DNA from: an uncultured Spartobacteria bacterium
GTDB taxonomy: Bacteria > Verrucomicrobiota > Verrucomicrobiia > Chthoniobacterales > Chthoniobacteraceae
Assembly: GCA_903919125.1 (NCBI GenBank)
Contig: CAIXGS010000030.1
Span: 1 to 64,000 of the forward strand
DNA: 64,000 nucleotides
Direction: 5' to 3'
The notes below the pieces were generated by a model. It ran no database searches, was not told the origin of the DNA, and was given only the letters and a program-made list of their open reading frames with translations. Below, in pieces: positions 1-21,804 of this stretch; the stretch's first letter is position 1; each line of letters starts with the position of its first letter. Made by a program: the position numbers and the translations under genes.

Positions 1-3000
1 CCGCTGGTCGAAAGACGGTCATTCCCACCCGAGAGCAGCAACGAGCCGCTGTTCACCGTCGTCCCACCCGTGTAGCTGTTCACCCCGCTCAGCGTCAGCG
101 CCCCGGATCCGTCCTTCACCAAGCTCTGCGTCCCAGCGAGGATCGCGCTCACCGTTCCAGACTGTGCCGCGAACGCCGTCCCTGTCGCCGTGAGCGTCCC
201 GTTTTGAACCACGCCGCCAGCAAACGTGACCGTCCCCAAAGTCGTTTGGCCATTGCCACCCAGGTCCAGCACGCCTCCCGTCGTCGTGATGGAGCCGCTG
301 GTTGAAAGACGGTCACTCCCAACGGAGAGCAGCAACGAGCCATCGTTCACCGTGGTTCCCCCAATGTACGAGTTCACTCCACTCAAAGTCAGCGCCCCAG
401 TCCCGCTCTTCACCAAACCCTGCGTACCAGCCAGAATCGCGCTCACCGTCCCTGACTGCGCCACATACGCCGTCCCTGTCGAGATAAAGGTCCCGTTTTG
501 AACCAACCCGCCCGCAAACGTAATCGTCCCGAGCGTCGTCTGGCTATTGCCTCCCAAATCCAACACGCCCCCAGTAGTCGTAATTGCTCCACTCGCGGAA
601 AGACGGTCATCGCCGCCAATAAGCTCAAGCGTCCCGTCGCTCACCGTCGTACCGCCTAAGTACGTGTTCACTCCGCTCAAGCTCAGCGCCCCAGTCCCGC
701 TCTTCACCAAACCCTGCGCACCCGCAAGCACCGCGCTCACCGTCCCGGACTGCGCAGCGAAAGCCGTCCCAGTCGCCGTGAGCGTCCCGTTCTGAACCAC
801 GCCGCCGGCAAACGTGATCGTTCCAGAGCTGCTCTGACCGCTTCCACCTAAATCCAGCACCCCGCCCGTCGTCGTAATCGCACCGCTCAAAGAGAGACGA
901 TCGTCCCCTCCAGCCAGAATTAGTGAACCTGCGCTCACCGTTGTTCCACCAGTATAACTGCTCACCCCGCTCAATGTCAGCGCCCCAGTGCCGCTCTTCA
1001 CCAAAGCCTGTGTCCCAGCGAGAACCGCGCTCACCGTACCGCTTTGCGCCACAAACGCGGTCCCAGTCGCCGTCAGGATCCCGTTCTGAACCACGCCGCC
1101 CGAAAACGTGATCGTTCCCAATGTCGTTTGACCATTACCGCCGAGGTCCAATACGCCGCCACTTGTCGTGATGGAGCCACTGGTTGAAAGGCGATTATTC
1201 CCACCCGCGAGCAGCAACGAACCGGCATTCACCGTTGTCCCACCCGTGTAGCTGTTTACACCGCTCAGAGTTAGCGCCCCTGTTCCGTCCTTCACCAAGC
1301 TCTGCGTCCCAGCCAAGATCGCGCTCACCGTCCCGCTTTGCGCCACGTACGCCGTCCCCGTGGCCGTCAGCGTGCCGTTCTGAACTACGCCGCCCGCAAA
1401 GGTGACCGTTCCCAGCGTCGTTTGGTTATTGCCTCCGAGATCCAGTACGCCGCCTGTCGTCGTGATGGAGCCGCTGGTCGAAAGTCGGTCATTCCCGCCG
1501 GAGAGCAACAACGAGCCGTCGTTCACCGTCGTCCCACCCGTGTACGAATTCACCCCGCTCAGGGTCAGCGCCCCAGTCCCGCTCTTCACCAAGCTCTGCG
1601 TGCCAGCGAGGACCGCGCTCACCGCCCCGCTTTGCGCCACATACGCCGTCCCCGTGGCCGTCAGCGTGCCGTTCTGAACGACGCCGCCCGCAAAGGTGAC
1701 CGTCCCTAGCGTCGTTTGGCCATTGCCGCCAAGGTCCAGCACGCCGCCCGTCGTCGTGATGGAGCCGCTAGTCGAAAGACGGTCATTCCCACCGGAGAGC
1801 AGCAACGAGCCGTCGTTCACCGTCGTCCCACCCGTGTAGCTGTTCACTCTGCTCAAAGTCAGCGCCTCGGCTCCGTCCTTCACGAGGCCCTGCGTCCCAG
1901 CGAGGATCGCGCTCACAGTACCAGACTGCGCCACGTACGCCGTTCCTGTCGCCGTCAACGTACCATTCTGAACTACGCCGCCCGCAAACGTAATTGTCCC
2001 GAGCGTCGTTTGGCTATTACCGCCAAGGTCCAATACGCCGCCTGTCGTCGTGATGGAGCCGCTGGTCGAAAGGCGGTTATCGCCACCGGAGAGCAGCAAC
2101 GAGCCGCTGTTCACCGTCGTCCCACCGTCATACGAGTTCAACCCGCTCAGCGTCAGCGCCCCAGATCCGTCCTTCACCAAGCTCTGCGTCCCAGCGAGGA
2201 TCGCGCTCACCGTCCCAGACTGTGCCGCGAACGTCGTCCCTGTCGCCGTGAGCGTTCCGTTTTGAACCACGCCGCCCGCAAACGTGATCGTTCCCAACGT
2301 CGTTTGGCTATTGCCGCTCAGGTCCAATACGCCTCCCGTCGTCGTGATCGCGCCGCTTGTTGAAAGGCGGTCACTCCCGCCGGTAAGTAGCAAGGAGCCG
2401 TCGTTCACCGTCGTCCCACCCGTGTAGCTGTTCACCCCGCTCAGCGTCAGCGCCCCAGTCCCGCTCTTCACTAAACCCTGCGTGCCAGCCAGCACCGCGC
2501 TCACCGTCCCAGACTGCGCCGCGAACGCCGTCCCAGTGGCCGTCAGCGTCCCGTTTTGAACCACACCGCCAACGAACGTGATTGTCCCCGACGTACTCTG
2601 GCTATTGCCGCCAAGCTCCAGTACGCCTCCCGCGGTCGTGATCGCGCCGCTGAGCGACAGTCGATTATTCCCGCCGCTCAGCACAAGGGAGCCTTCATCG
2701 ACACGAGTTCCTCCCGTATACGTGCTCACTCCGCTCAAAGTGAGTGCACCCGTCCCGCTCTTGACCAACCCCTGCCCGCCCGCAAGCACCGCGCTCACCG
2801 TTCCACTTTGCGCCACAAACGCCGTTCCAGTCGCGGTCAGGATCCCGTTCTCCACAACACCACCGGCAAACGTAAGCGTTCCCGAGCTGCTCTGGCCATT
2901 ACTGCCTAGATCCAGCACCCCACCACTACTGATCGTGATGGAGCCCGTAATCGATAGACGATTATCCCCGCCACTGAGCAGCAGCGAACCCGCGCTCACG

Positions 3001-3610
3001 TTAGTTCCATTACTGTAAGTGTTCACTCCACTTAAAGTCAGCAGGCCAGAGGTTGTTTTATTCAACGCCACACTCCCCGCCAGAACCGCGGAAACCACTC
3101 CTGATTCCACGCTGAAATCGTTGCCAATTGCTTCAAGAATCCCATTTTCAACGGTCCCGCCGGAAAGCAAAATAAGGCCAGAAGTACTCTGACTGTGCCC
3201 CCCGATATCCAAAACTCCCCCAAGAAGAGTCAGGGAACCGCTCGTGGATAGACGATTTCCCGCACCAGAAAGGGCGAGTGTGCCCTCAGTCACTGTCGTG
3301 CCGCCGGTGTAGGTGTTGGCACCACTCAAAGTCAGAGTGGCGCTCGATGTCTTGTTCAAAGCTACCGCCCCCGCCAAAACTCCGGAGACCTCCCCAGATC
3401 GCCCATCAAAAGCACTTCCCGTCGCCGTGAGCGTTCCGTCCTGCAAGGTGCCACCCAGAAGCAGCACATTCCCTGAAGTGCTCTGCGAATATCCGCCTAA
3501 ATCCAACACGCCCGCAGACAAAGTAATCGTGCCGCTAGTAGAAAGCCGATTATCCCCACCGGCGAGCGTGAGTTGCCCACCACCCAGAGTCGTCCCGCCC
3601 GTGTAGGTGT
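1..3610 (-). repeat. Tandem 294-bp (98-residue) repeats within the giant gene
   Basis: The landmark ccgctggtcgaaagacggtc and its variants recurs at 1, 295, 589, 883, 1177, 1471, 1765, 2059, 2353, 2647, 2944, 3238 and 3532. The period is 294 bp, with one 297-bp step. In protein each unit reads roughly GSLLLSGGNDRLSTSGSITT, then a glycine-rich stretch, then LVKDGSGALTLSGVNSYTGG. The array starts before base 1, so the copy number is a minimum. Confidence 0.93.
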
Positions 3611-6600
3611 TTACAGCGGCGAGCGTCAAAACTCCGTTTAGAACCGACAACGAACCACTGCCACTGATTACCATTGCCATGGAACCGCCGTAAGTGTCGG
3701 TCTGGTTAAAAACAAGGGACGCATTGTTCGTGATTGAAGAAGTCGTGGTGAGAGCTCCGCCCGAGCCACCCGAACCAATCCGCAACGTCCCACTATTGAC
3801 GATCGTCTCTCCAGAATACGTATTCGCCCCCGATAACGTGAGCAACCCGGTGCCGGACTTCGTCAACGATCCGTCTCCGGAAATCACTCCCTGCAAAGCC
3901 ATATTTCCGCTTCCAGCAACACTGAGCACAAAAGCGGAGGTACCGGTGTCCACTGCCCCACCCATGGTCATCTCATGGAGACTGCTATTGGCCCAAGTCT
4001 GCGAGGCCACAAGCGAAATAGCAGGCCCCAAAGTCACCGTACCAGCCGACGCCACGACAGTGATCCCGCTACTACCGATAACCAGCGTACTACTGCTAAT
4101 GTCCGTGAGAGTCACCGGATTGGTGGCCGTCACCGTCAAGCCCTTAAGCGCCATGTCCGCATCGGAATTCATGGAAAGCGACCCAGCCGAGGCAAGGTCG
4201 GTCAGATACACCTCAGTGGAAGCACCCGGAATGAGTGTCGTAAAGGTGCCTCCCGAAGCATCCGTGGTCCAATTAGAGAAGCCGCTAATAATGTTAAAGC
4301 TGCTATCCGTGGTAAAGTTACTGGAAGTCCATGTGAGAGGGTCATCAGAAACGATGCCTCCCACCCAATACGCAGACGACAAGCCATTAGTAAGAGTGGG
4401 CCTGATGACCAAGGAGGTCGCAGACCTGGTCACCGTGTAGGAATAATCCGAGACGCCTGTCAGAACGAAAGTGCCTGAACTTAAACCAGACGGAGCGGTC
4501 AAAACGGTGTAATCCAGATTGCTACTGTAGGCTCCCGTCATGTTAAGACGGGTAGTGCCCGTGAAAGTTGGCGCACTGGCGATCGCAATAGTTTTGCCCC
4601 ATTTTACCCCCAGGGTGCTGTTAGAACTCATGGATAGAGAGCCGACGCTCAGAGTTCCAGCAGACAGGGATGAGGTACTCGGTGAATAATCAAAACGAGC
4701 ACCGGATTCAATCGAGAGGCCTGCACTGTTGGCGATACTGGACGAACCCGCCAATTTCAGCAGCCCCGCGGACACCGTCGTAGATCCCGTGTAAGTGCTG
4801 GCCCCAGTCAAGATTTGGGCGCCCGCCCCAGCTTTGACCAATGCCAGACTCCCGCTGATGGCTCCAGAATACGTCTGCGAGACACCCAACGCTGGACTCA
4901 AGGTCAACTTGGTCACTGCAGCGCCCGGCGCAAATCCTCCCGAACCAGTCAGGCCACCGAGTACCGGCTCCGTTACCGCCGAACCTAGCGCCAGTGTTCC
5001 CGCGCTGTTGGTATTGAAAGCGCTATTTTGCAACGCGCGATTGGTAGTGAGTAAGAGCGTACCTGCATTCACCGACGTTTTTCCGCTGAAAGTGTTAGCG
5101 CCGTCTAATTCCAAAGTGCCCGAGCCCGCTTTGGTGAGCGTGTAGGAGCCCGTGATCGTGCCACCCACCGCTAAGGTTCCTCCATTCACCGTGACCATTC
5201 GGTTGGCACTCAACGCGACAGCACCCGTGCCTAGGTTGAGGTTATTGCTTCCGATGAAGGTGAAATCAGCGGCCCAACTCTGTGCGTTATCCGAACTCAG
5301 CACAATCGCACTGCCGCTGGTGTTATCGAGCGAACCGCCGGAGATCGTGAAAAGACCAGTTCCAAGCGCGCCCGCGTCATTCACGTTCAACCGGCCGGCA
5401 GAAAGCGTCGTGCCACCTGTGTACGTATTGAGGCCGCTCAAGACTAAGGTTCCAGAGCCTATTTGGTGCACCTCACCAGTCCCGTCAATTGTCGCAGCGA
5501 AGTCTGTCCCTTGAGTCAGGGTGTTGGAGCGTTTGAACGCTAAGACTGCGTTGTCTGTGACCGCGCTACTAGTTGAGAGCGCCCCAGTCAATCCGCCGTT
5601 ACCTAGTTGCAGAACTCCGGATTCAATCACCGTTGCACCGGTGTAGGTGTTGGCCCCGCTTAAAACCAACGTCCCAGTCCCCACTTTCTGAAGCTTACCG
5701 GACCCACCGATGCTCGAAGCAAAATCCACTCCCTGCACAACCGTATTCGAGCGGTTGAACACGAGAGTCGCATTGTTCGTCAACACGCTGCTTGCAGAAA
5801 GCGACCCTGAATCGCCGCCCTCGCCAATTTGCAACGTCCCCGCGCTCACAAGGGTCGCACCAGTGTAGGTGTTCGCGCCGGAGAGAACCAGCGTCCCAGC
5901 GCCTAACTGTAGCAACGAACCTGTGCCGGAGATTATGGAGGCAAAATCTGTCCCCTGCGTGAGTGTGCTTGAAAGATTGAAAATGAGCGTCGCATTATTA
6001 GTCAGCGCACCAAGACTGGAAAGAGAGCCACTACTGCCTCCGTCACCGATTTCGAGCGTCCCAGCGCTGATGGTTGTCGCCCCCGTGTAAGTGTTATCCC
6101 CAGTGAGCGTGAGTCTCCCCGCACCCGATTTGGTGAGTGCGAAACCACCGCTGATGGCGCCGCCCTCCGTCAAGGTGCCCGCACTTACCGTAACCGTGCG
6201 GTTTGCGCTCAAGGCCACCGCACCGGTTCCCATGTTGAGCGAATCGCTACCCTTAAACACGAAATCTCCGCTCCACGTCTGCGTGTGATTGTTACTTAGG
6301 GTGAGCGCGGCACCGCTGGTGTTGTCAATCGAACCGCCTGCGATGGTGAACAATGAAGTCGCGCCCAGCGCCGTAGCATTACCGATGTTTAGCGTCCCAG
6401 CGGAGAGAGTTGTCCCGCCGCTGTAGGTGTTTGCTCCACTGAGAGTGAGGGCTCCGGCACCGGACTTCGTTAGGGAATAAGCGCCGCTGACAATTCCACC
6501 CTCAACGAGCGATCCTGCGCTTACCGTTAGGGTCAGATTTGCTCCAAGTGCCACGGCACCCGTTCCCATGTTGAGCGAGTTACTGCCCTTGAAAACAAAA

Positions 6601-9600
6601 TCACCGCTCCATGCTTGCGTGTTATTGTTGCCAAGGGTGAGCGCTACGCCACTGGTGTTGTCAATCGATCCACCCGCAATGGTGAACAACGAAGTCGCGC
6701 CGAGCGCGGTGGCATTATTGATGTTCAACGTCCCCGCCGAAACCGTCAGACCACCGCTAAACGTGTTCGCTCCAGACAAAGTCAGTGCACCGCTCCCCGA
6801 CTTCGTCAGCGAATAGGCGCCGCTAATCACGCCGCCCACACTCAAAGTTCCCGCGCTAACAGTCACCGTCCGGTTCGCCCCCAAAGTGACTGCGCCCGTT
6901 CCCAGGTTGAGCGAGTTGCCACCCTTGAAAACGAAATCGCCGCTCCATGCCTGCGTGTTATTGTTGCTCAGGGTGAGCGCTCCGCCACTGGTGTTGTCGA
7001 TCGATCCGCCCGCGATGGTGAACAGCGAAGTCGCTCCAAGCGCCGTTGCATTATTGATGTTCAACGTCCCCGCCGAAAGCGTCAGACCACCGCTAAACGT
7101 GTTCGCTCCAGACAAAGTCAGTGCACCGCTCCCCGCCTTCGTCAGCGAATAGGCACCGCTAATGGCGCCACCCTCCGTCAACGTGCCCGCGATCACCGTC
7201 ACCGTCCGGTTCGCTCCCAAGGTGACCGCGCCCGTTCCCAAATTCAAATCGTTGGTGCCCTTGAAAACGAAGTCCCCGCTCCAAGCTTGCGTGTTGTTGT
7301 TGCTCAGAGTCAGCGCGGCACCGCTCGTGTTGTCTATCGATCCGCCGGAGATGGTGAACAATGAAGTCGCCCCGAGCGCCGTGGCGTTATTGATGTTTAG
7401 CGTCCCCGCAGAAAGCGTCATTCCACCGCTAAACGTGTTCGCTCCAGACAACGTCAAGGCACCACTGCCCGCCTTCGTCAGCGAATACGCGCCGCTAATG
7501 ACCCCGCCCTCAGTCAACGTGCCAGCACTGACCGTCACAATGCGGTTCGCTCCCAAAGTCACCGCGCCTGTTCCCAGATTCAAATCGTTGGTTCCTCTGA
7601 ACGTGAAATCCCCGCTCCAAACCTGTGCATTGTTATTGGAAAGCGTCAGCGCTCCCCCGGAAAGATTGTCCACCACCGTGGCCCCAGCGATGCTCAGGCT
7701 GCCGGAACCAACAGCTGTCGTGCTGTTCAAGTTCAACGTCCCCGCAGAGAGCGTAAGCCCGCCACTAAATGTGTTCGCTCCAGACAACGTCAGCACACCG
7801 CTACCCACCTTCGTCAGCGAATAAGCGCCGCTAATCACCCCGCCCTCAGTCAACGTCCCCGCACTCACAGTCACGATACGGTTCGCTCCCAAAGTCACCG
7901 CGCCTGTACCCAAATTCAAATCGTTGGTGCCTTTGAAAGTAAAATCCCCGCTCCAAACCTGAGCGTTACTATTGGAAAGCGTCAGCGCTCCCCCAGAAAG
8001 ATTGTCCAGCACCGTGGCCCCAGAGATGATCAGACTGCCAGAGCCAACAGCCGTCGCACTGTTAAGGTTCAACGTCCCAGCCGAGAGCGTCAGCCCACCG
8101 CTAAACGTGTTCGCCCCAGACAGCGTCAACGCGCCGCTCCCCGACTTCGTGAGCGAATAGCTACCACCAATCAAGCCGCCTTCCGTCAACGTGCCCCCAC
8201 TCACAGTCACTGTGCGATTCGCGCTCAAAGTGACCGCGCCGATTCCCAAGTTCAGATCGTTGGTGCCTTTGAAAACGAAGTCTCCACCCCAAGTTTGCGC
8301 GTTATTGTTACTCAACGTCAGCGCCGACCCGCTCGTGTTATCAATCGAGCCGCCAGAAATCGTGAACACCGAAGCCGCCGCTCCCAACGCCGTCGCGCTA
8401 TTGATGTTCAACGTCCCAGCCGAAAGCGTCATTCCACCGCTAAACGTGTTCGCTCCAGAAAGCGTCAGCGCACCACTGCCCGCCTTCGTCAGCGAATACG
8501 CGCCGCTAATGACGCCCCCCTCAGTCAACGTGCCAGCACTCACAGTCACCGTACGGTTCGCACTCAAGGTGACCGCGCCCGTACCCAAATTCAAATGGTT
8601 GGTGCCTTTGAACGTGAAATCCCCATTCCACGTTTGCGCGTTGTTGTTGCTCAACGTCAGCGCCGTCCCGCTCGTGTTATCAATCGACCCGCCAGAGATT
8701 GTGAACACTGAAGCCGCTGCTCCCAACGCCGTCGCGCTATTCACGTTCAACGTCCCAGCGGAAAGCGTCATTCCACCGCTAAACGTGTTCGCTCCAGAAA
8801 GCGTCAGCGCGCCGCTCCCCGCCTTCGTCAGCGAATAAGCGCCGCTAATCACGCCGCCTTCCGCCAACGTGCCAGCACTCACCGTCACCGTACGGTTCGC
8901 ACCCAAAGTCACCGCACCCGTTCCCAGATTCAAATCGTTGGTTCCTTTGAATGTGAAATCTCCGCTCCACACTTGTGCGTTGTTATTCGAAAGAGTCAGC
9001 GCTCCCCCAGAAAGGTTATCCAGCACCGTGGACCCAGAGATGGTCAGGCTGCCAGTGCCAACAGCCGTCGCGCTATTCACGTTCAACGTCCCTGCCGAAA
9101 GCGTCAGTCCACCGCTAAACGTGTTCGCTCCAGAAAGTGTCATCACGCCGCTACCCGCCTTTGTGAGCGAATAGGCGCCGCTAACCACACCACCCTCCGT
9201 CAACGTGCCAGCACTCACCGTCACCGTACGGTTCGCTCCCAAAGTCACCGCGCCCGTTCCGAGATTCAAATCGTTGGTCCCCTTGAACGTGAAATCCCCG
9301 CTCCAAACCTGAGCGTTGTTATTGGAAAGCGTCAACGCTCCCCCAGAAAGATTATCCAGCACCGTGGACCCAGAGATGGTCAAGCTGCCAGCGCCAACAG
9401 CCGTAGCGCTATTCACGTTCAACGTCCCCGCCGAAAGCGTCAGTCCTCCGCTAAACGTGTTTGCTCCAGAAAGGGTCAATGTGCCACTCCCAGCCTTCGT
9501 CAACGAGTAGGCTCCGCTAATGACGCCGCCCTCCGTCAACGTGCCCGCGCTCACCGTCAACGTACGGTTCGCACTCAAAGTGACCGCGCCCGTTCCCAGA

Positions 9601-12600: not shown

Positions 12601-15600
12601 ACCGTGCGGTTCCCTCCCAAAGTGACCGCGCCCGTTCCTAGATTGAGAGAACTTGTGCCCTTGAACGTGAAATCACCGCTCCAAGTCTGCGCGATGTTGT
12701 TGGCGAGTGTGAACGCCGCCCCGGAAAGATTGTCCAGCACTGCGGCCCCAGCGATAGTCAGGCTACCAGTGCCCAAAGCCTTTGAGTTGTTGATATTCAA
12801 CGTCCCAGCGGAAAGTGTCAGCCCTCCGCTGTACGTGTTCGCTCCAGACAACGTCAGCGCGCCGCTCCCAGCCTTCGTCAACGAGTAGCCGCCGCTAATC
12901 ACGCCGCCCACCGTCAACGTGCCCGCACTCACCGTCACCGAACGGTTCGCTCCCAAAGTCACTGCGCCCGTTCCCAGATTCAAATCGTTGCTCCCTTTGA
13001 ACACGAAGTCCCCGCTCCACGTTTGCGCGTTGTTGTTGCTCAACGTCACCGCCGCACCGCTTGTGTTATCGATCGATCCGCCAGAAATCGTGAACACCGA
13101 AGCCGCCGCACCCAACGCCGTCGCGTTATTAACATTGAGCGTCCCTGCCGAAAGCGTCAGTCCGCCGCTAAACGTGTTAGCCCCAGAAAGCGTCATCACC
13201 CCGTCACCCGCCTTAGTGAACGAGTAAGCACCGCTAATCACACCGCCTTCGGTCAACGTGCCAGCACTCACAGTCACTGTGCGGTTCGCTCCCAAAGTCA
13301 CCGCACCCGTTCCCAAATTCAAATCGTTGGTGCCTTTGAAAACGAAGTCTGCGCCCCAACTTTGCGCGTTGTTGTTGCTCAACGTCACCGCCGCCCCGCT
13401 CGTGTTATCGATCGATCCAGCAGAAATCGTGAACACCGAAGCTGCCGCACCCAACGCCTTAGAGTTGTTAATATTCAACGTCCCAGCCGAAAGTGTCAGT
13501 CCACCGCTAAACGTGTTCGCTCCGGAAAGGGTCAACGCGCCGCTCCCCGACTTCGTCAGCGAATAAGCGCCGCTAATCACGCCGCCTTCCGTCAAAGTGC
13601 CAGCACTCACCGTCACCGTACGGTTCGCACCCAAAGTCACCCCACCTGTTCCCAGGTTCAAATCACTGCTGCCCTTAAACGTGAAATCCCCGCTCCAAAC
13701 CTGTGCATTGTTGTTGCTCAAAGTCAGCGCTCCCCCAGAAAGGTTATCCAACACCGTAGACCCAGAGATGGTCAGGCTGCCGGTGCCAACGGCCGTCGCG
13801 TGATTCACGTTCAACGTCCCTGCCGAAAGCGTTAGTCCGCCGCTAAAACTGTTCGCCCCAGAAAGCGTCAACGTACCACTGCCCGCCTTCGTGAGCGAAT
13901 AAGCGCCGCTAATCACGCCGCCCTCCGTCAGCGTGCCAGCGCTCACTGTCACCGTACGGTTTGCGCTCAAGGTGACTGCGCCCGTTCCCAAGTTCAGATC
14001 GTTCGTCCCTTTGAAGGTGAAATTCCCGCTCCATACCTGTGCGTTGTTATTGGAAAGCGTCAGCGCCCCCCCGGAAAGATTATCCAGCACCGAGGCCCCA
14101 GAGATGGTCAGGCTACCGGAACCAACCGCTGTCGCGCTGGACAGGTTCAACGTCCCTGCGGAAAGCGTCAGTCCACCGCTAAACGTGTTCGCTCCGGAAA
14201 GGGTCAACGCGCCGCTCCCCGACTTCGTCAGCGAATAAGCGCCGCTAATCACGCCGCCTTCCGTCAACGTGCCCGCGCTCACCGTCACCGTACGGTTCGC
14301 ACCCAACGTCACCGCGCCCGTTCCCAGGTTCAGATCGTTGGTGCCCTTGAAAACGAAGTCTCCACTCCACGTTTGCGTGTTGTTGTTGCTCAACGTCAAA
14401 GCCGACCCGCTCGTGTTGTCGATCGAACCGCCAGAAATCGTAAACGCTGAAGCCGCCGATCCCAATGCCGTCGCGTTATTGATATTCAACGTCCCCGCCG
14501 AAAGCGTCAGCCCACCACTAAACGTGTTCGCTCCAGAAAGCGTCAACGCACCACTGCCCGACTTCGTTAGCGAATAAGCGCCACTAATCACGCCGCCCTC
14601 AGTCAACGTGCCCGCACTCACCGTCAGCGTGCGGTTCGCTCCCAAAGTGACCGCGCCCGTTCCCAGATTCAAATCGTTGCTTCCTTTGAAAATGAAATCT
14701 CCGCTCCAGGTCTGAGCGTTGTTGTTGCTCAAAGTCAGCGCCGTCCCGCTCGTGTTATCAATAGATCCGCCAGAAATCGTGAACCCTGAAGCCGCTGCAC
14801 CCAACGCCGTCGCGCTATTGATATTTAACGTTCCCGCGGAAAGCGTCATGCCACCGCTAAACGTGTTCGCTCCAGACAACGTCAACGCGCCGCTACCCGC
14901 CTTCGTCAGCGAATAGCTGCCACTCATCACACCGCCTTCCGTCAACGTGCCCGCGCTCACCGTCACGGTCCGATTCGCACTCAAAGTCACCGCGCCCGTT
15001 CCCAGATTCAAATCGTTGGTTCCTTTGAACACGAAGTCTGCGCTCCACGTTTGCGCGTTGTTATTGCTCAACGTCAACGCCGACCCGCTCGTATTGTCGA
15101 TCGATCCGCCAGAAAGCGTGAAAGACGAGGCCGCGGCTCCCAACGCCGTAGTGCTATTGATATTCAACGTCCCCGCCGAAAGCGTGAGTCCGCCGCTAAA
15201 CGTGTTCGCTCCAGAAAGCGTCAACACCCCGCCACCGTCCTTGGTTAAAGAGTATGCGCCGCCAATCACGCCGCCCTCCGTCAACGTGCCCGCGCTCACC
15301 GTCACCGTACGGTTCGCACCCAACGTCACCGCGCCCGTTCCCAGATTTAAATCGTTGGTTCCTTTGAAAACGAAATCGCCGCTCCACGTCTGCGCGTTGT
15401 TGTTACTCAATGTCAGCGCCGCACCGCTCGTGTTATCAATCGAGCCAGCAGAAATCGTGAATACTGAAGCTGCCGCACCCAAAGCCTTCGAGTTGTTGAT
15501 ATTCAGCGTTCCCGCCGAAAGCGTCAGCCCGCCACTAAAAGTGTTCGCTCCAGACAATGTCAACACGCCGCTCCCGGCCTTCGTCAGCGAGTAAGCGCCA

Positions 15601-18600
15601 CTAATCACACCACCCTCCGTAAGAGTCCCCGTACTCACAGTGACCATCGGACTCGCCGTCAATGTCACCGCACCCGTTCCGAAGTTCAGGTCGCTGCCTC
15701 CTGCAAAAGTGAAACTCCCAGCCCACACTTGCGCATTGTTGTTCGCTAGCGTGAAAGATGAACCGGACATGTTCGCAACCGTTGTCGACGCTGCGATGGT
15801 CAAACTCCCCGTGCCCAGCGCGTACGCGGAATTCACAAACAAACTGCCTGAATTTAACGTCGTGCCACCGCTGTAAGTATTCGTCCCTGACAGCACCAGC
15901 GTGCCACCTCCAAGCTGCAGCAAGGCTCCCGCCCCAGAAATCGCCGTCCCAAAATCCGTTCCCTGCGTCACCGTATTCGAGCGGTTAAACGCTAAAACAG
16001 CACCGCTCGCAACACTCAGTGAACCGGTGCTCAAGAGACTGCCGGTTGTAGAGCCCTCACCAAGTTGCAAAGTTCCAGCACTCACTGAAGCTGCTCCAGT
16101 GAAGACATTAGTGGCACTCAAAACTAACCTTCCAGAACCAGCCTTACTCAATCCGAAAGCACCGCTTATCGAACCGCCCTCCGTCAAAGTCCCCGAGCTC
16201 ACCGTAATCACCGGACTCGCAGTCAAGGTTACCGCACCCGTGCCGAGATTTAGATCGTTGCTGCCTGCGAAACCGAAACTTCCCGCCCAGACCTGGGAAA
16301 TATTATTCGCCAGGGTCAACGCTGAGCCAGATGTGTTCCCCAGCGTCGTCGACGCCGAAATCGTCAAGCTCCCCGTGCCCAACGCGTACGCCGAATTCAC
16401 GAACAAGCTGCCCGCTTTCAAGCTTGTGCCGCCGCTGTAAGTATTCGAACCGGAGAGAATCAGCGTTCCACTTCCAATCTGCATAACGGTTCCGGCACCC
16501 AAAATCACCCCAAAGTCCGATCCCTGCGTAGCCGCGTTCGAGCGATTAAACGTCAAAACCGCTCCACTCGCAACACTCACCGACCCCGTACTCAAACGAC
16601 CCGAGATCGAGCCCGCGCCGACCTGCAACGATCCCGCAGTCACAGTAGTCATGCCCGAATAAATATTCATCCCGCTCAAAACTAGGAGCCCCGCGCCCGC
16701 CGTGGTTAGCCCAAATGAACCGCTGATCGTACCACCCACCGTGAAGGTTCCAGTGCTTACCGTCACAATGGGACTCGCCGTCAACGTCACCGCTCCCGTG
16801 CCGAGATTCAAATCACTGCCGCCTGCAAAAGCAAAATTCCCTGCCCAGACCTGCGCATTATTGTTCGCCAAAGTAACAGAAGAACCCGATGTGTTCCCAA
16901 GTGTAGTCGAGGCCGAGATCGTCAGACTTCCCGTTCCCAGCGCGTATGCGGAGTTCACAAACAAACTCCCTGCGTTCAACTTCGTGCCGCCGCTGTACGT
17001 ATTCACCCCAGACAGCACCAACGTACCACTTCCTATCTGCATCACGGTTCCCGACCCAGAGATCAACGTCGAAAAATCCGTTCCCTGAGTCGCACTATTC
17101 GAGCGATTGAACAACAGCACCGCGCCGCTTCCGACACTCAGAGCACTCGCACTGGAAAGACTGCCTACCGTTCCCCCGATCCCGAGCTGAAGGGTACCTG
17201 CACTAACGGTCGTCGCACCCACATAAGTATTTGCCCCGCTGAACGTCACCGAGCCTGTAGTCGTCTTGTTCAACGCCTGCGTCCCCGCAAGAACCGCGCT
17301 TACACTCCCGCTTTGCATGTCAAACGCGTTGGCAGTGGCTGCCAAAGTCCCGTTTTGAAACATCCCGCCCGTCAACGAGATCACCCCAGCACTCAACTGG
17401 CTGTACCCGCCCAAATCCAACACCCCACCGGCTCCGCTGATTGAACCACCGGTCGCCAACCGATTATTACCACCGCTCAACAACAACGAGCCCGCGCTCA
17501 CCGTAGTGCCCCCGGTGTAAGTATTCACCCCGCTCAACATCACTGAGCCCGCAGTCGTCTTGTTCAACGCCTGCGTACCCGCAAGAACCGCGCTCACACT
17601 CCCACTTTGCATATCAAACGCGTTGGCTGTGGCGGTCAAAGTCCCGTTTTGAAACGTCCCGCCCGTCAGCGAGATCACGCCAGAACTCGACTGATTATAC
17701 CCGCCCAAATCTAACACTCCACCAACTCCACTGATCGAACCACTGATCGCCAAACGGTTGCTGCCGCCACTCAAGAGCAACGAGCCCGCGCTCACTGTCG
17801 TCCCTCCCGTGTAGGAATTCGAATTGGTCAACGTCACCGAACCCGTAGTCGTCTTGTTCAGACCCTGCGCCCCCGAAAGCGTCGCGGTCACGCTCCCGCT
17901 CTGCATGTCAAACACGCTGCCTGTCGCCGTCAAAGTCCCGTTTTGAAACGTCCCGCCCTTCAACGCAATGACACCAGAACTCGATTGGCTGTACCCGCCC
18001 AAATCCAACACGCCACCGGCTCCGGTTATAGCGCCGCTAATTGACAACCGATTACTTCCTCCACTCAACAACAACGAACCCGCGCTCACTGTGGTCCCTC
18101 CGGTATAGGAGCTTGATGCCGTCAGAAGCAACCGACCGGACCCTGCTTTCGTCAGACCAAACGCCCCCGATATTACGCCACCAACTGTCAAGGTTCCCGC
18201 GCTGACCGTAACTGTGGGACTCGCGCCCAAGGTCACCGCCCCAGTTCCCAAGTTCAGGCCGCTGCTCCCTATGAAAGTAAAGCTGCTATTCCAGTTTTGC
18301 GCGTTGTTGGTCAACATCGTCACCTCGGAACCCACGCCATTGTCTAGCGAACCTCCGTTGATCACCAGACGAGACGTCCCGAAGGAAGAGTTACTCGACG
18401 TAGTCGTGTCGCCTCCGACATAAACAAGCGTCAGTGTCTTAACAAACCCAGAGCAAGGATCTGTAAAGTTGGCGTTTGAGGCAGAAAATGTCGTCGTACC
18501 CGAGGCGATGAAACCTGACACGATCGCGGTAACATCAATGGTTCCTTGAGACGCGTTGCCGTATATGGCGCTGACAATTCTTGCGCCGGAAGTCAGATTC

Positions 18601-21569
18601 ACGGATCCATTTTCACTCACCACTGTCGAGGTGTTCGCTCCAATTACGCTCACATTACCTGAGGCTAAAATGAGCGACCCTGAAAAAGTGTTTCCAGACT
18701 GAAGTTCCAGCGTGCCGCTGCCCATCTGAATGACCGAACCGCTTCCGCTAATCACCGAAGCAAAAGCCTTTCCCTGTGTCGCAGTGTCGGACCGATTAAA
18801 ACCCAGCGTCCCATAGTCAACCAAAGTACTGCTTGGAGAGAGTGAACCCGAACTGCCCCCTAAGCCGAGAATCAGAGAGCCAGCATAAATAGTGGTCGCT
18901 CCCGTGTAGGTGTTCGCTCCGCTCAAATAACCAATCCCGCTAGTTGTCTTATTGAGTCCCTGAGCCCCTGCAAGCACAGCGCTCACCGTTCCGCTTTGCA
19001 GATCGAACGCTCCAGAAGATGCCGTCAAAGCCCCGTTTTGTATTCTCCCGCCCGTGATCGATATCGACCCAGACGTGGATTGGCTATACCCGCCCAAATC
19101 CAGCACGCCGCCCGCAGCAAATATGGAACCGCTGGTTGAAAGTAGATTATTACCGCCAACCAACATCAACGAGCCAGCGCTCACCGTAGTCCCGCCCGTG
19201 TAACTATTGGCGGCGTTAAACACAAGTGTGCCGCTCCCGAGTTGCATCAAAGAGCCGCTACCGGAAATCGTTGGATAAAAATCAGTTCCCTCAGTGATCG
19301 TATTCGAGCGGTTAAATGCCAGTACTGCACCGCTAAACACCGAAATCGCGCTCAAACTGCTGAGCGAACCAGTGGTTCCGGCATTACCAATTTGCAGTGT
19401 TCCGGCACTCACCTTGGTGGCACCTGTGTAAGTGTTTGATCCGCTTAACGTCTGAGTTCCAGTACCATATTTAGTCAGAGATCCTGCCCCACTCAATGCA
19501 CCAGAGAAAACATTCGAGTAATTTATCGAGTTTCCCACAGAGAACTTCACCGCCGTGGACGCCGCATTGTTCAGGACCAGTCCGCCGCTACCAGCCAATG
19601 CACCAGCTTGGTACGCAGTATTTGAACCAAAATTTAAACTGCCTCCACTTAGTGTCAGCACCCCAGAGGTAGCCGCAGGCCCCAGTTCTGTTCCCGATCC
19701 CGCAAGGAATAAGGTGCCAGCCGATACGGTCGTTCCGCCCAAATAAGTGTTACTGTCTTTCAGTATCAGGCTCCCGCTACCCAACTGGGAGACACCCCCA
19801 CTGCCCGAAATCGCCAACGCGAAATCTGTTCCCTGAGTAATGGTGTCTGTCTGATAGAACGCTAAGGTCGCTCCACTGGAAACAGAAATGGTGCTGGATG
19901 AGCTCAACGAACCTGTGGTGCCCCCGCTCCCCAATTGCAAAATGCCCCCTGTGATTGAAGTAGAACCAGTATACGTGTTGGTCCCTGACAGCACCTGCGT
20001 TCCAGATCCGGATTTCGTCAATACAAGTGCCGTCAGGCCCCCATTTTTAATCACGCCACTAAACACCCCAGAGCCGCCCGCCACGCCCAACGTCGCATTG
20101 TGAAATCCTCCACTATAAGCGTTCTGCAGAATGCCCGCTCCATTCAACGCATCCATCTGCCCATTTTCTGCAAAAAAATCCAGCGTCGCACCGGATGCAA
20201 TATTCACACTACCTTGGTTACTCCCGAAACTAGTGCCGTTCCAATTCGCCTGAATCATTCCTCCCTGAATGTCAATCAACCCACCCGAGCTCAAACTGAA
20301 GTTTACATGTAAAGAATGATCCCCCAGACCCCATGTGCCAGCACCGCTCTTCACCACCGTGCCGGCTCCTGAGATTGTAAAAGAATAAGACGGCGAAACA
20401 GAATTAGTCAGATAAACCTCTAACTGGGCTCCCGAATTAACCACAACGTCATTGCTGATTCCCTGGAGAACAGTATACGAGTTTATCTTCAAACTCCCCG
20501 CACTCACTGTCGTCACTCCCGTGTAAGTGTTTGCCACAGACAACGTCAGTGTGCCAGTCCCACGTTTGGTCAAACCACCCCCAGTCGAACTAGGATTGGA
20601 CCGCAAAGCACTGTCAATCCTGACATCCATTCCATTCGTATCCACTGTCGCGCCTCCAGAACCCACATAAATCATTTGTATGTTGTCTGTTAAAAACGTG
20701 TCCGGCAATGAAGTCCCTGCCCGTAATGTACCGCCGTCAAAATAGATCGTATTCGCCGTGTACTTAGCTGCCCCCCGATCGTAAAAATCGTTGTTGCTGG
20801 AGATCATCCGAGAGGTGGTCAATATCCCCCCGTTCGATAAGAAAAGGGTGCCTGTACCAGATTGCGAGGGGCCCGCAAAATTGAAGTAATTGTACGAAGA
20901 AGACCCGGGCGCCCCCACAGTCACCTGACCGCCAGACACATTAAGAACCCCATTTCCATAATAACCGAGATAGGTCACGGCGCCTCCGTTGCCTATGTTC
21001 AAGGTTCCCCCAGTTCCAACAGTCACTGACCCAGTCGTGGCCCCTGTAGAATCTCCCGACACAAACTTATACGTGGACGCACTTCCCTGGGTCACTGTGG
21101 CATTTGAGATGGAGAGTGTATAACCACCCGACCCAATGATATTTCCATTGACGATAACGGAAATGGAGCTCGTTCCGCCACTGATCGAGATGTCCTGTGT
21201 GGAAAAATCCAGACTACTCAAAGTGGTTCCGGAGGAAATAGTCGTAGCTGCCTGTAGCCTCAAAGGTGCGGCGAAAAAAACCAGCAGCACGCCAAATACG
21301 GAAGCGCTCGCGTGAAATAATCGCGGGAAAGAAGACGCTTTCAGGCCACTCCTAACTTCCCCAAAAACACGACTCCCCCCCCTCCTCACTCGGGTGGACG
21401 CACATTTTCTAAAAAAAGCCAGAAATGCAGCAAGAAACATGATTTTCCCCAAAAATCCACTCAAAACATTGAACCCAAACCCCAGTTCGAGAGGACGTCC
21501 CCATCTCGCGCTAGAGGACTCCAGAAAGCGAACCGAGCTATGCAGTAAACCGCCGCGATTAAAGACCAT
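1..21569 (-). CDS. Giant autotransporter-associated beta-strand repeat (PATR) protein, 3' end outside window
   Basis: An exported, probably surface-attached or secreted adhesin/passenger-type protein. I checked that the frame from the ATG at 21569 is kept at 20021, 14534, 3866 and 119, and found no stop in the stretches read, so at least 7,189 codons lie in the window and the C-terminus lies beyond base 1. Typical repeat cores read LTKAGSGALTLSGANTFSGG, the signature of the autotransporter-associated beta-strand repeat family, which forms right-handed beta-helices. The N-terminus has two hydrophobic stretches (FLAAFLAFF and SVFGVLLVFFAA) and a cleavage-like site LQA|A. An in-frame stop lies just before the ATG at 21569. 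A second ATG at 21440 would give a 64-residue presequence and is equally plausible. Neither has a convincing ribosome binding site. The C-terminal anchor (autotransporter barrel, PEP-CTERM or other) cannot be seen. No enzyme domain was recognised in the parts read. Confidence 0.9.
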   Translation of the reverse strand, partial: MVFNRGGLLHSSVRFLESSSARWGRPLELGFGFNVLSGFLGKIMFLAAFLAFFRKCASTRVRRGGSRVFGEVRSGLKASSFPRLFHASASVFGVLLVFFAAPLRLQAATTISSGTTLSSLDFSTQDISISGGTSSISVIVNGNIIGSGGYTLSISNATVTQGSASTYKFVSGDSTGATTGSVTVGTGGTLNIGNGGAVTYLGYYGNGVLNVSGGQVTVGAPGSSSYNYFNFAGPSQSGTGTLFLSNGGILTTSRMISSNNDFYDRGAAKYTANTIYFDGGTLRAGTSLPDTFLTDNIQMIYVGSGGATVDTNGMDVRIDSALRSNPSSTGGGLTKRGTGTLTLSVANTYTGVTTVSAGSLKINSYTVLQGISNDVVVNSGAQLEVYLTNSVSPSYSFTISGAGTVVKSGAGTWGLGDHSLHVNFSLSSGGLIDIQGGMIQANWNGTSFGSNQGSVNIASGATLDFFAENGQMDALNGAGILQNAYSGGFHNATLGVAGGSGVFSGVIKNGGLTALVLTKSGSGTQVLSGTNTYTGSTSITGGILQLGSGGTTGSLSSSSTISVSSGATLAFYQTDTITQGTDFALAISGSGGVSQLGSGSLILKDSNTYLGGTTVSAGTLFLAGSGTELGPAATSGVLTLSGGSLNFGSNTAYQAGALAGSGGLVLNNAASTAVKFSVGNSINYSNVFSGALSGAGSLTKYGTGTQTLSGSNTYTGATKVSAGTLQIGNAGTTGSLSSLSAISVFSGAVLAFNRSNTITEGTDFYPTISGSGSLMQLGSGTLVFNAANSYTGGTTVSAGSLMLVGGNNLLSTSGSIFAAGGVLDLGGYSQSTSGSISITGGRIQNGALTASSGAFDLQSGTVSAVLAGAQGLNKTTSGIGYLSGANTYTGATTIYAGSLILGLGGSSGSLSPSSTLVDYGTLGFNRSDTATQGKAFASVISGSGSVIQMGSGTLELQSGNTFSGSLILASGNVSVIGANTSTVVSENGSVNLTSGARIVSAIYGNASQGTIDVTAIVSGFIASGTTTFSASNANFTDPCSGFVKTLTLVYVGGDTTTSSNSSFGTSRLVINGGSLDNGVGSEVTMLTNNAQNWNSSFTFIGSSGLNLGTGAVTLGASPTVTVSAGTLTVGGVISGAFGLTKAGSGRLLLTASSSYTGGTTVSAGSLLLSGGSNRLSISGAITGAGGVLDLGGYSQSSSGVIALKGGTFQNGTLTATGSVFDMQSGSVTATLSGAQGLNKTTTGSVTLTNSNSYTGGTTVSAGSLLLSGGSNRLAISGSISGVGGVLDLGGYNQSSSGVISLTGGTFQNGTLTATANAFDMQSGSVSAVLAGTQALNKTTAGSVMLSGVNTYTGGTTVSAGSLLLSGGNNRLATGGSISGAGGVLDLGGYSQLSAGVISLTGGMFQNGTLAATANAFDMQSGSVSAVLAGTQALNKTTTGSVTFSGANTYVGATTVSAGTLQLGIGGTVGSLSSASALSVGSGAVLLFNRSNSATQGTDFSTLISGSGTVMQIGSGTLVLSGVNTYSGGTKLNAGSLFVNSAYALGTGSLTISASTTLGNTSGSSVTLANNNAQVWAGNFAFAGGSDLNLGTGAVTLTASPIVTVSTGTFTVGGTISGSFGLTTAGAGLLVLSGMNIYSGMTTVTAGSLQVGAGSISGRLSTGSVSVASGAVLTFNRSNAATQGSDFGVILGAGTVMQIGSGTLILSGSNTYSGGTSLKAGSLFVNSAYALGTGSLTISASTTLGNTSGSALTLANNISQVWAGSFGFAGSNDLNLGTGAVTLTASPVITVSSGTLTEGGSISGAFGLSKAGSGRLVLSATNVFTGAASVSAGTLQLGEGSTTGSLLSTGSLSVASGAVLAFNRSNTVTQGTDFGTAISGAGALLQLGGGTLVLSGTNTYSGGTTLNSGSLFVNSAYALGTGSLTIAASTTVANMSGSSFTLANNNAQVWAGSFTFAGGSDLNFGTGAVTLTASPMVTVSTGTLTEGGVISGAYSLTKAGSGVLTLSGANTFSGGLTLSAGTLNINNSKALGAAASVFTISAGSIDNTSGAALTLSNNNAQTWSGDFVFKGTNDLNLGTGAVTLGANRTVTVSAGTLTEGGVIGGAYSLTKDGGGVLTLSGANTFSGGLTLSAGTLNINSTTALGAAASSFTLSGGSIDNTSGSALTLSNNNAQTWSADFVFKGTNDLNLGTGAVTLSANRTVTVSAGTLTEGGVMSGSYSLTKAGSGALTLSGANTFSGGMTLSAGTLNINSATALGAAASGFTISGGSIDNTSGTALTLSNNNAQTWSGDFIFKGSNDLNLGTGAVTLGANRTLTVSAGTLTEGGVISGAYSLTKSGSGALTLSGANTFSGGLTLSAGTLNINNATALGSAASAFTISGGSIDNTSGSALTLSNNNTQTWSGDFVFKGTNDLNLGTGAVTLGANRTVTVSAGTLTEGGVISGAYSLTKSGSGALTLSGANTFSGGLTLSAGTLNLSSATAVGSGSLTISGASVLDNLSGGALTLSNNNAQVWSGNFTFKGTNDLNLGTGAVTLSANRTVTVSAGTLTEGGVISGAYSLTKAGSGTLTLSGANSFSGGLTLSAGTLNVNHATAVGTGSLTISGSTVLDNLSGGALTLSNNNAQVWSGDFTFKGSSDLNLGTGGVTLGANRTVTVSAGTLTEGGVISGAYSLTKSGSGALTLSGANTFSGGLTLSAGTLNINNSKALGAAASVFTISAGSIDNTSGAAVTLSNNNAQSWGADFVFKGTNDLNLGTGAVTLGANRTVTVSAGTLTEGGVISGAYSFTKAGDGVMTLSGANTFSGGLTLSAGTLNVNNATALGAAASVFTISGGSIDNTSGAAVTLSNNNAQTWSGDFVFKGSNDLNLGTGAVTLGANRSVTVSAGTLTVGGVISGGYSLTKAGSGALTLSGANTYSGGLTLSAGTLNINNSKALGTGSLTIAGAAVLDNLSGAAFTLANNIAQTWSGDFTFKGTSSLNLGTGAVTLGGNRTVTVSAGTLTEGGVISGTYSLTKAGSGALTLSGANTFSGGLTLSAGTLNINNATALGAAASVFTISGGSIDNSSGSALTLSNNNAQTWGGDFVFKGSNDLNLGTGAVTLGANRTVTVSAGTLTEGGVISGTYSLTKAGSGVLTLSGANTFSGGMTLSAGTLNINNATALGAAASGFTISGGSIDNTSGAALTLSNNNAQTWSGDFVFKGTNDLNLGTGAVTLGGNRTVTVSVGTLTEGGVISGAYSLTKSGSGTLTLSGANTFSGGLTLSAGTLNVNSATAVGSGSLAISGSTVLDNLSGGALTLSNNNAQVWSGDFTFKGTNDLNLGTGAVTLGGNRTVTVIAGTLSEGGVISGAYSLTKAGSGTLTLSGANTFSGGLTLSAGTLNINNATAVGTGSLTISGATVLDNLSGGALTLSNNNAQVWSGDFTFKGTNDLNLGTGAVTLGANRTVTVSAGTLTEGGVIGGAYSLTKSGSGALTLSGANTFSGGLTLSSGTLNINNSKALGAAASALTISGGSIDNTSGTALTLSNNNSQTWGGDFVFKGSNDLNLGTGAVTLSASRTVTVSAGTLTVGGVISGTYSLTKAGSGVLTLSGANTFSGGMTLSAGTLNINNATALGAAASVVTISGGSIDNTSGSALTLSNNNAQTWSGDFVFKGSNDLNLGTGAVTLGANRTVTVSAGTLTEGGVISGTYSLMKAGSGALTLSGGNTFSGGLTLSAGTLNINSTTALGAAASGFTISGGSIDNTSGSALTLSNNNAQTWGADFVFKGTNSLNLGTGAVTLGANRTVTVSAGTLTEGGVISGSYSLTKAGSGALTLSGANTFSGGLTLSAGTLNVNSATALGAAASGFTISGGSIDNTSGAALTLSNNNAQTWSGDFVFKGSNDLNLGTGAVTLGGNRAVTVSAGTLTEGGVISGAYSLTKAGSGVLTLSGANTFSGGMTLSAGTLNINNATALGATSLFTISGGSIDNTSGAALTLSNNNTQAWSGDFVFKGTNDLNLGTGAVTLSANRTLTVSAGTLTEGGVISGAYSLTKAGSGTLTLSGANTFSGGLTLSAGTLNVNSATAVGAGSLTISGSTVLDNLSGGALTLSNNNAQVWSGDFTFKGTNDLNLGTGAVTLGANRTVTVSAGTLTEGGVVSGAYSLTKAGSGVMTLSGANTFSGGLTLSAGTLNVNSATAVGTGSLTISGSTVLDNLSGGALTLSNNNAQVWSGDFTFKGTNDLNLGTGAVTLGANRTVTVSAGTLAEGGVISGAYSLTKAGSGALTLSGANTFSGGMTLSAGTLNVNSATALGAAASVFTISGGSIDNTSGTALTLSNNNAQTWNGDFTFKGTNHLNLGTGAVTLSANRTVTVSAGTLTEGGVISGAYSLTKAGSGALTLSGANTFSGGMTLSAGTLNINSATALGAAASVFTISGGSIDNTSGSALTLSNNNAQTWGGDFVFKGTNDLNLGIGAVTLSANRTVTVSGGTLTEGGLIGGSYSLTKSGSGALTLSGANTFSGGLTLSAGTLNLNSATAVGSGSLIISGATVLDNLSGGALTLSNSNAQVWSGDFTFKGTNDLNLGTGAVTLGANRIVTVSAGTLTEGGVISGAYSLTKVGSGVLTLSGANTFSGGLTLSAGTLNLNSTTAVGSGSLSIAGATVVDNLSGGALTLSNNNAQVWSGDFTFRGTNDLNLGTGAVTLGANRIVTVSAGTLTEGGVISGAYSLTKAGSGALTLSGANTFSGGMTLSAGTLNINNATALGATSLFTISGGSIDNTSGAALTLSNNNTQAWSGDFVFKGTNDLNLGTGAVTLGANRTVTVIAGTLTEGGAISGAYSLTKAGSGALTLSGANTFSGGLTLSAGTLNINNATALGATSLFTIAGGSIDNTSGGALTLSNNNTQAWSGDFVFKGGNSLNLGTGAVTLGANRTVTVSAGTLSVGGVISGAYSLTKSGSGALTLSGANTFSGGLTVSAGTLNINNATALGATSLFTIAGGSIDNTSGVALTLGNNNTQAWSGDFVFKGSNSLNMGTGAVALGANLTLTVSAGSLVEGGIVSGAYSLTKSGAGALTLSGANTYSGGTTLSAGTLNIGNATALGATSLFTIAGGSIDNTSGAALTLSNNHTQTWSGDFVFKGSDSLNMGTGAVALSANRTVTVSAGTLTEGGAISGGFALTKSGAGRLTLTGDNTYTGATTISAGTLEIGDGGSSGSLSSLGALTNNATLIFNLSSTLTQGTDFASIISGTGSLLQLGAGTLVLSGANTYTGATLVSAGTLQIGEGGDSGSLSASSVLTNNATLVFNRSNTVVQGVDFASSIGGSGKLQKVGTGTLVLSGANTYTGATVIESGVLQLGNGGLTGALSTSSAVTDNAVLAFKRSNTLTQGTDFAATIDGTGEVHQIGSGTLVLSGLNTYTGGTTLSAGRLNVNDAGALGTGLFTISGGSLDNTSGSAIVLSSDNAQSWAADFTFIGSNNLNLGTGAVALSANRMVTVNGGTLAVGGTITGSYTLTKAGSGTLELDGANTFSGKTSVNAGTLLLTTNRALQNSAFNTNSAGTLALGSAVTEPVLGGLTGSGGFAPGAAVTKLTLSPALGVSQTYSGAISGSLALVKAGAGAQILTGASTYTGSTTVSAGLLKLAGSSSIANSAGLSIESGARFDYSPSTSSLSAGTLSVGSLSMSSNSTLGVKWGKTIAIASAPTFTGTTRLNMTGAYSSNLDYTVLTAPSGLSSGTFVLTGVSDYSYTVTRSATSLVIRPTLTNGLSSAYWVGGIVSDDPLTWTSSNFTTDSSFNIISGFSNWTTDASGGTFTTLIPGASTEVYLTDLASAGSLSMNSDADMALKGLTVTATNPVTLTDISSSTLVIGSSGITVVASAGTVTLGPAISLVASQTWANSSLHEMTMGGAVDTGTSAFVLSVAGSGNMALQGVISGDGSLTKSGTGLLTLSGANTYSGETIVNSGTLRIGSGGSGGALTTTSSITNNASLVFNQTDTYGGSMAMVISGSGSLSVLNGVLTLAAVNTYTGGTTLGGGQLTLAGGDNRLSTSGTITLSAGVLDLGGYSQSTSGNVLLLGGTLQDGTLTATGSAFDGRSGEVSGVLAGAVALNKTSSATLTLSGANTYTGGTTVTEGTLALSGAGNRLSTSGSLTLLGGVLDIGGHSQSTSGLILLSGGTVENGILEAIGNDFSVESGVVSAVLAGSVALNKTTSGLLTLSGVNTYSNGTNVSAGSLLLSGGDNRLSITGSITISSGGVLDLGSNGQSSSGTLTFAGGVVENGILTATGTAFVAQSGTVSAVLAGGQGLVKSGTGALTLSGVSTYTGGTRVDEGSLVLSGGNNRLSLSGAITTAGGVLELGGNSQSTSGTITFVGGVVQNGTLTATGTAFAAQSGTVSAVLAGTQGLVKSGTGALTLSGVNSYTGGTTVNDGSLLLTGGSDRLSTSGAITTTGGVLDLSGNSQTTLGTITFAGGVVQNGTLTATGTTFAAQSGTVSAILAGTQSLVKDGSGALTLSGLNSYDGGTTVNSGSLLLSGGDNRLSTSGSITTTGGVLDLGGNSQTTLGTITFAGGVVQNGTLTATGTAYVAQSGTVSAILAGTQGLVKDGAEALTLSRVNSYTGGTTVNDGSLLLSGGNDRLSTSGSITTTGGVLDLGGNGQTTLGTVTFAGGVVQNGTLTATGTAYVAQSGAVSAVLAGTQSLVKSGTGALTLSGVNSYTGGTTVNDGSLLLSGGNDRLSTSGSITTTGGVLDLGGNNQTTLGTVTFAGGVVQNGTLTATGTAYVAQSGTVSAILAGTQSLVKDGTGALTLSGVNSYTGGTTVNAGSLLLAGGNNRLSTSGSITTSGGVLDLGGNGQTTLGTITFSGGVVQNGILTATGTAFVAQSGTVSAVLAGTQALVKSGTGALTLSGVSSYTGGTTVSAGSLILAGGDDRLSLSGAITTTGGVLDLGGSGQSSSGTITFAGGVVQNGTLTATGTAFAAQSGTVSAVLAGAQGLVKSGTGALSLSGVNTYLGGTTVSDGTLELIGGDDRLSASGAITTTGGVLDLGGNSQTTLGTITFAGGLVQNGTFISTGTAYVAQSGTVSAILAGTQGLVKSGTGALTLSGVNSYIGGTTVNDGSLLLSVGSDRLSTSGSITTTGGVLDLGGNGQTTLGTVTFAGGVVQNGTLTATGTAFAAQSGTVSAILAGTQSLVKDGSGALTLSGVNSYTGGTTVNSGSLLLSGGNDRLSTS
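6480..15594 (-). repeat. 27 tandem 336/339-bp (112/113-residue) repeats within the giant gene
   Basis: Repeat boundaries taken at the conserved SLTKAGSGALTLSGANTFSGG segment fall at 15594, 15255, 14916, 14577, 14238, 13902, 13566, 13227, 12888, 12552, 12213, 11874, 11538, 11202, 10863, 10524, 10185, 9846, 9510, 9174, 8838, 8499, 8160, 7824, 7488, 7152 and 6816. Each unit is 339 bp (class with DNTSGSALTLSNNN and an Ala-Ala insertion) or 336 bp (classes with DNLSGGALTLSNNN, or with GATSLFTIAGG). Neighbouring units are nearly identical over long stretches of DNA. Between 3.6 and 6.5 kb the repeats are related but more diverged. Confidence 0.92.
15610..17100 (-). repeat. Three longer repeat units of about 560 bp within the giant gene
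   Basis: Three copies of a composite unit have equivalent points near 15873, 16437 and 16995 (steps of 564 and 558 bp). Each joins a beta-strand module related to the 112-residue repeat to a second module with its own GSGTLILSG-type strand. They lie N-terminal to the 27-copy array in the protein. Confidence 0.75.
17210..18110 (-). repeat. Second block of 294-bp repeats within the giant gene
   Basis: The landmark tgcatgtcaaac and its variants occurs at 17314, 17608 and 17902, again exactly 294 bp apart. The units resemble the 98-residue class at the other end of the window part of the gene, about 14 kb away, but are more diverged from it than from each other. Confidence 0.8.
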
Positions 21570-21804
21570 TTTACGTCTTTAAAACAACCAAAATACCCTT
21601 GAAATCCGATTCAACCGCCCACAAACCAATTTTTTGTGCTACCCAAGCACAGAACAAACTCGTCGTAAGGGGCTCATTTCACGGAGATCAATTGATTGTT
21701 TTTAACAATCATTCCTTAACCTCAAAAAAACTACCTTGCCGCACCAATGCTCATTTTCCTCCGGTGACTGGACAAAGTTTAAAAAGCCTTATCTAACTGC
21801 TTCC
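21570..21804. other. Divergent intergenic region with inverted repeat
   Basis: This 235-bp AT-rich spacer separates the giant gene from the esterase gene and must hold promoters for both. A perfect inverted repeat TGATTGT-ttttta-like loop-ACAATCA lies at 21693-21711, and GTGCT/AGCAC arms lie at 21636-21650. Neither is followed by a T-run in a useful direction, so they look like possible operators rather than terminators. No convincing -35/-10 pair was found. Confidence 0.4.

Follow-up and report, generated by a model that had tools for sequence, protein, structure and literature searches.

Type Va autotransporters such as IcsA, Ag43, ShdA, fusolisin and Ssp carry a leader, a β-strand passenger with the PATR motif and a C-terminal β-domain (PF03797) on one polypeptide. 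In 2012, BigE with its 10,429 amino acids was described as the largest autotransporter known; its passenger domain is replicated eight-fold, and relatives are found in Betaproteobacteria (PMC3419190). Periscope proteins include ShdA, which has 4–6 PATR repeats with small copy-number differences (PMC9704523). Within the PVC superphylum, some groups are enriched in giant proteins (PMC11573180), and an Omnitrophota ORF of 39,678 amino acids with 42 predicted transmembrane helices was described, such ORFs having few known domains (PMC10066038). Our literature search found no giant autotransporters of Verrucomicrobiota, which is not proof of their absence.

In this study, we analyzed a stretch of 64,000 nucleotides (positions 1–64,000 of contig C30, hereafter the window) from a Verrucomicrobiota MAG (4.34 Mb, 87 contigs, 95% complete) and compared one of its frames with the remaining contigs of this host genome and with relatives of the genus. 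Translation of the minus strand revealed no stop codon from position 21578 to base 3 (7,192 codons). The ATG at position 21569 is the first in this frame and is followed by 7,189 codons up to the window edge, in agreement with the initial annotation, which had described a frame of at least this length staying in phase. Contig C30 ends at the window edge, so that it is the contig end itself which cuts the frame, and the window contains the N-terminal half of the gene alone. This frame probably represents the N-terminal half of one monomeric (type Va) autotransporter gene encoding about 12,991 amino acids with a passenger of PATR β-helix repeats.

The kind of protein is already known, and its size is extreme. 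The predicted order of signal-like leader, PATR passenger and PF03797 domain on one polypeptide is shared with the IcsA-type autotransporters; differences from these are the predicted length, a passenger made nearly completely of tandem PATR blocks, and the host, which is a Verrucomicrobiota MAG instead of an enterobacterial pathogen. BigE is similar as a very large autotransporter with replicated passenger segments and added internal β-strand repeats, whereas here three unit classes are arranged in blocks including a 7-unit higher-order repeat, and the predicted protein is about 25% longer (20,385 amino acids in a congener). Like periscope proteins, the locus would encode a surface-attached array with changing tandem copy number, but here the change is between species (one assembly each) and by tens of units. 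With the giants of Omnitrophota and other PVC bacteria the protein has in common that it is very long, probably surface-exposed and encoded in a PVC-superphylum host; in contrast to the Omnitrophota ORFs it combines one known repeat with a classical outer-membrane anchor.

PATR (PF12951) was the only Pfam family above the cut-off along the frame, with 152.8–464.4 bits per segment (cut-off 27), and the corresponding NCBIfam model TIGR02601 scored 147–277 bits (cut-off 19.85). Segments of the window also showed sub-threshold NCBIfam similarity to ShdA and fusolisin; the cut-off of the ShdA equivalog NF011847 (2249 bits) was not reached at 59.5–223.8 bits. Apart from PATR, no protease, other enzymatic or separate adhesin domain was recognised in the giant protein by Pfam. 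Unit lengths in the window are about 74, 98 and 112/113 residues, which bears out the three repeat classes noticed before. The second block of 98-residue units contains a 7-unit higher-order repeat (686 amino acids, 2,058 nucleotides), which continues on contig C13, and both contigs together contain about 100 recognisable PATR units. As the longest exact repeat within the frame comprises only 101 bp, the units are individually distinct and a gross collapse of the array in the assembly is unlikely. The features of the window are listed in Table 1.

Table 1. Features of the giant frame in the window, with their positions, strand and the observations on which they are based.
Feature	Position	Strand	Basis or comparison
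Probable giant type Va autotransporter gene, N-terminal 7,189 codons	3..21569	-	Open frame; continues on C13:2-17287 (+ strand) by homology and repeat phase
Long presequence, aa 1–106, ending in a signal-peptide-like hydrophobic segment	21252..21569	-	Hydropathy; candidate starts
G8 homopolymer within the presequence (C8 on +)	21375..21382	-	Sole G/C run of ≥8 in the 64-kb window
N-terminal region, aa 107–522, predicted distal tip	20004..21251	-	50–70% identity to G003:C23
Irregular mixed PATR repeats, aa 523–1145	18135..20003	-	PATR profile matches and unit mapping
First 98-residue block, 3 units	17256..18134	-	At least 17 units in the G003 orthologue
Alternating 74/112-residue units	15906..17255	-	Alternation also in G003:C60
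112/113-residue array, 29 units	6120..15905	-	Matching run of G003:C60 has 4 units
Three 74-residue units and one 112-type unit	5121..6119	-	Unit mapping
Non-tandem landmark segment, aa 5484–5907	3849..5120	-	Colinear with G003:C60 about 2532–2957, 65–71% identity, next-best place 33–47%
Second 98-residue block, about 12.3 units	3..3635	-	Unit identity matrix and end-phase test

The start codon of the giant gene is uncertain and its presequence is unusually long. The hydropathy maximum of the presequence was located at aa 87–103 (LFHASASVFGVLLVFFAAPLRLQA-ATT), and a cleavage-like site follows the hydrophobic segment (aa 85–107). The G8 tract, which was not seen in the orthologous contig G003:C23, lies between the ATG at 21569 and this signal-like segment. 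It is possibly a site of phase variation, or a sequencing or assembly slip that would shift the start.

For identification of the missing half, the frame was searched against its own genome. Its last 1,000 residues matched the start of contig C13 at 92–93% identity, and the 98-residue repeat class was present above about 45% identity on none of the own-genome contigs besides C30 and C13. On C13, the frame begins inside a 98-residue array and extends without interruption from base 2 up to the stop codon at position 17288 (5,762 codons). Its C-terminus is an autotransporter β-domain (PF03797, 93 bits at a cut-off of 26) with the last residues ...VNFLIGF, i.e., a C-terminal phenylalanine as the aromatic residue, where orthologues end in ...LGF, IGF or VGF. 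Thereby, the probable C-terminal anchor, for which a search beyond the edge had been proposed, was located. In a sister species (G003), unique landmarks of the two halves follow each other in matching order within one open frame of 8,665 codons on contig C60. This frame is 65–73% identical to residues 5251–6200 of the C30 frame, with a next-best place near 35% in the non-tandem part, and 72–82% identical to residues 3451–5762 of the C13 frame.

The repeat phase allowed us to estimate the size of the gap. In DNA, units A6861, B318 and B1004 are 93–95% identical and units A6959, B416 and B1102 90–95%, while most other pairs reach 70–89%. Of all units, the one at the cut end of C30 has its best match in unit B612 of C13 (97.1%), and the tail of the same unit B612 is identical (100%) to the 72 bases with which C13 begins. 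At the break, 34 and 24 of the 98 residues of a unit are present, and hence 40 residues, or 40 + n × 686, would be missing. With n = 0, the second 98-residue block would comprise about 32 units, the same number as in G003:C60; this agreement is a counted coincidence and not independent proof. The predicted full protein then has about 12,991 amino acids (7,189 + 40 + 5,762), well above the minimum size that had been given for it and above the 10,429 amino acids of BigE; its suggested place among the largest bacterial proteins is supported. The contigs show no suffix-prefix overlap, and the assembly contains no physical link between them. Synteny was also considered as proof of the join, using the hydrolase on the C30 side and the response-regulator/glycosyltransferase cluster on the C13 side, but was uninformative, because these flanking genes are conserved in the genus yet do not lie beside the giant gene in relatives.

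Comparison of the orthologues revealed a conserved order of blocks with strongly different copy numbers. In the window gene, three 98-residue units are followed by alternating 74/112 units, 29 units of 112, three of 74, the landmark and about 32 units of 98 residues, and the continuation on C13 consists of 112, 98 × 15, 112 and 98, leading finally to the barrel. In G003, the order is 98 × at least 17 (combined from the end of C23 and the start of C60, since a contig break splits this orthologue), 74/112 alternation, 112 × 4, 74 × 3, landmark and 98 × 32, then 112, 98 × 1, 112 and 98, and again finally the barrel. Copy numbers are thus up to seven-fold or more apart (29 versus 4 units for the 112 class). 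The 112-type units of the window genome share a mean amino acid identity of 74% among themselves versus 57% with the units of G003, which is what amplification of the arrays after speciation would produce. The reach of the fibre may change over evolution by unequal exchange within blocks of near-identical sequence.

The passenger consists almost entirely of PATR β-strand repeats, arranged as blocks with unit lengths of about 74, 98 and 112 residues. An AlphaFold2 model of four 98-residue units was all β with modest confidence (pLDDT 62.8, pTM 0.53). Foldseek with this model gave no significant match; many of the top rows, none of them significant, were autotransporter passengers and other β-solenoids. 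Alignment of the same model (pLDDT 62.8) by VIA-align resulted in Z-scores of 13.7 with EspC and 13.3 with EspP, both at an rmsd of about 8, and of 11.1 with IcsA at an rmsd of 3.6 over 190 residues. A profile search weakly matched two passengers of known structure, those of fusolisin and IcsA (E 0.004–0.005). The confidence for the model of the anchor region was low (pLDDT 36), and a PDB sequence search using the C-terminal profile gave no match. A β-helix fold of the passenger is therefore likely, as judged from the PATR repeats, the weak profile matches and the passenger-like model; the first description as a β-helix repeat protein agrees with this, and its assumed use at the cell surface is supported by the repeats together with the β-domain on C13.

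Few cysteines are usual in passengers crossing the periplasm unfolded. Only 2 cysteines are present in the 12,951 residues. In the host genome, two Omp85 proteins were found, both closest to BamA among the NCBIfam models and both scoring below the BamA-type equivalog cut-off on the piece searched. According to the proposed mechanism, the giant protein would be exported by Sec via the signal-like segment, its β-domain would be inserted as a barrel by the BamA/Omp85 machinery of the host, and the passenger would be threaded through this barrel with the C-terminal repeats first. Outside the cell it would fold into a single very long β-helix, corresponding to a fibre of about 0.25–0.3 μm if 20–24 residues and 0.48 nm per coil are assumed, with the barrel as anchor and the faster-evolving N-terminal region at the far tip.

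PF03797 proteins were present in 10 of the 12 genomes of the genus, and the host genome has eight PF03797 matches. On G003:C2:25306-86460, a frame of 20,385 codons, uncut by contig ends, contains PATR repeats and ends in PF03797; its leader resembles that of a frame on contig C27 of the host genome (G000). The latter is a PATR frame of 14,194 codons (G000:C27:3450-46031), which is followed, with some overlap, by a 1,208-codon PATR frame in another phase running off the contig (G000:C27:1-3624), indicating a frameshift that is either real or due to assembly. A further PATR frame of 10,747 codons (G000:C10, from position 3 onward) is truncated where the contig ends; close to this point, it has a YDATTQAPLVGVPTL-type (MBG-like) segment. 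The end of G000:C48 and the start of G000:C45 encode nearly identical PATR-protein sequence (TSGGSATNVILGVSTDATSGQ...) and are both cut there; the N-terminal half truncated on C52 may be the counterpart of C48 or C45. Directly downstream of the giant gene, a single ORF (L023:17356-18885) combines a response-regulator receiver domain with a family 2 glycosyltransferase, and orthologues of this fusion ORF with 59–73% identity occur in several genomes of the genus.

Two objections concern the gene itself. C30 and C13 could be halves of two different PATR genes sharing the 98-residue class, so that the window gene ends elsewhere. Arrays do recombine, further PATR frames of the genome are truncated at contig ends (C10, C52, C48, C45, C27), and the adjacency of C30 and C13 is not confirmed by flank synteny; nevertheless, we consider this very unlikely, because a single frame of the sister species has the landmarks of the two halves in matching order, the high-identity 98-residue class is restricted to these two contigs, and the higher-order repeat stays in phase with one unit as best match for both cut ends. 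The frame could also be a decaying relic, which the initial annotation had named as an option (dead but still open), or an array expanded artefactually during assembly and not produced as a single protein; its extreme size in a draft MAG, the G8 tract near the start and the frameshift in the giant PATR gene on C27 would fit this. However, the 12,951 codons of C30 and C13 contain neither stops nor frameshifts. In a neutral simulation starting from the consensus, about 30 stops on average were expected in 39 units of 98 residues, 0 were observed, and none of 302 runs remained without any stop. These 39 units showed a mean dS of 0.94, a mean dN of 0.11 and a median dN/dS of 0.12, and the median was 0.13 among 112-residue and 0.10 among 113-residue units. 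Between species, where dS is 1.4–2.4, near saturation, so that the ratios are rough, dN/dS was 0.12 over residues 3451–5762 of C13 (4 gap columns in about 2,312 residues), 0.095 in the anchor region, 0.094 in the C30 landmark region and 0.22 in the N-terminal tip (aa 107–522), the least conserved part of the gene. Relatives also repeatedly carry long uninterrupted PATR frames. Because of the low dN/dS of 0.09–0.22 between orthologues and 0.10–0.13 among units and the lack of stops, decay or artefact appears highly improbable, and the giant gene looks functional and is under purifying selection.

Concerning its role, the sequence features would suit an adhesive or spacing stalk, by which the cell may attach to particles, algae or other cells. 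Alternatively, the protein may be a type Va autotransporter whose passenger is released or serves as a coat, sponge or shield, which could for instance keep off grazers or phages. The lack of a recognised adhesin domain beyond PATR and the occurrence of several such genes in each genome are compatible with this; on the other side, a protease or other enzymatic domain was not recognised. We regard release or a coat as the less probable, though realistic, option compared with the attached stalk.

Taking the locus as one giant type Va autotransporter gene, we tentatively suggest, as a possible and still doubtful generalisation, that this genus makes the longest classical autotransporters (about 13,000 to >20,000 amino acids), i.e., single β-helical fibres of a quarter micrometre or longer secreted via one barrel, whose length is reset between species by block amplification and contraction and whose synthesis might be switched on and off by the G8 tract. 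The predicted protein itself would push the size of classical autotransporters beyond the published 10,429 amino acids. It raises the question of how, with no ATP available outside the cell, one barrel and the periplasm can transport some 12,500 residues. The orthologues of the genus, with conserved anchors and very different array lengths, would offer a natural experiment on the purpose of passenger length.
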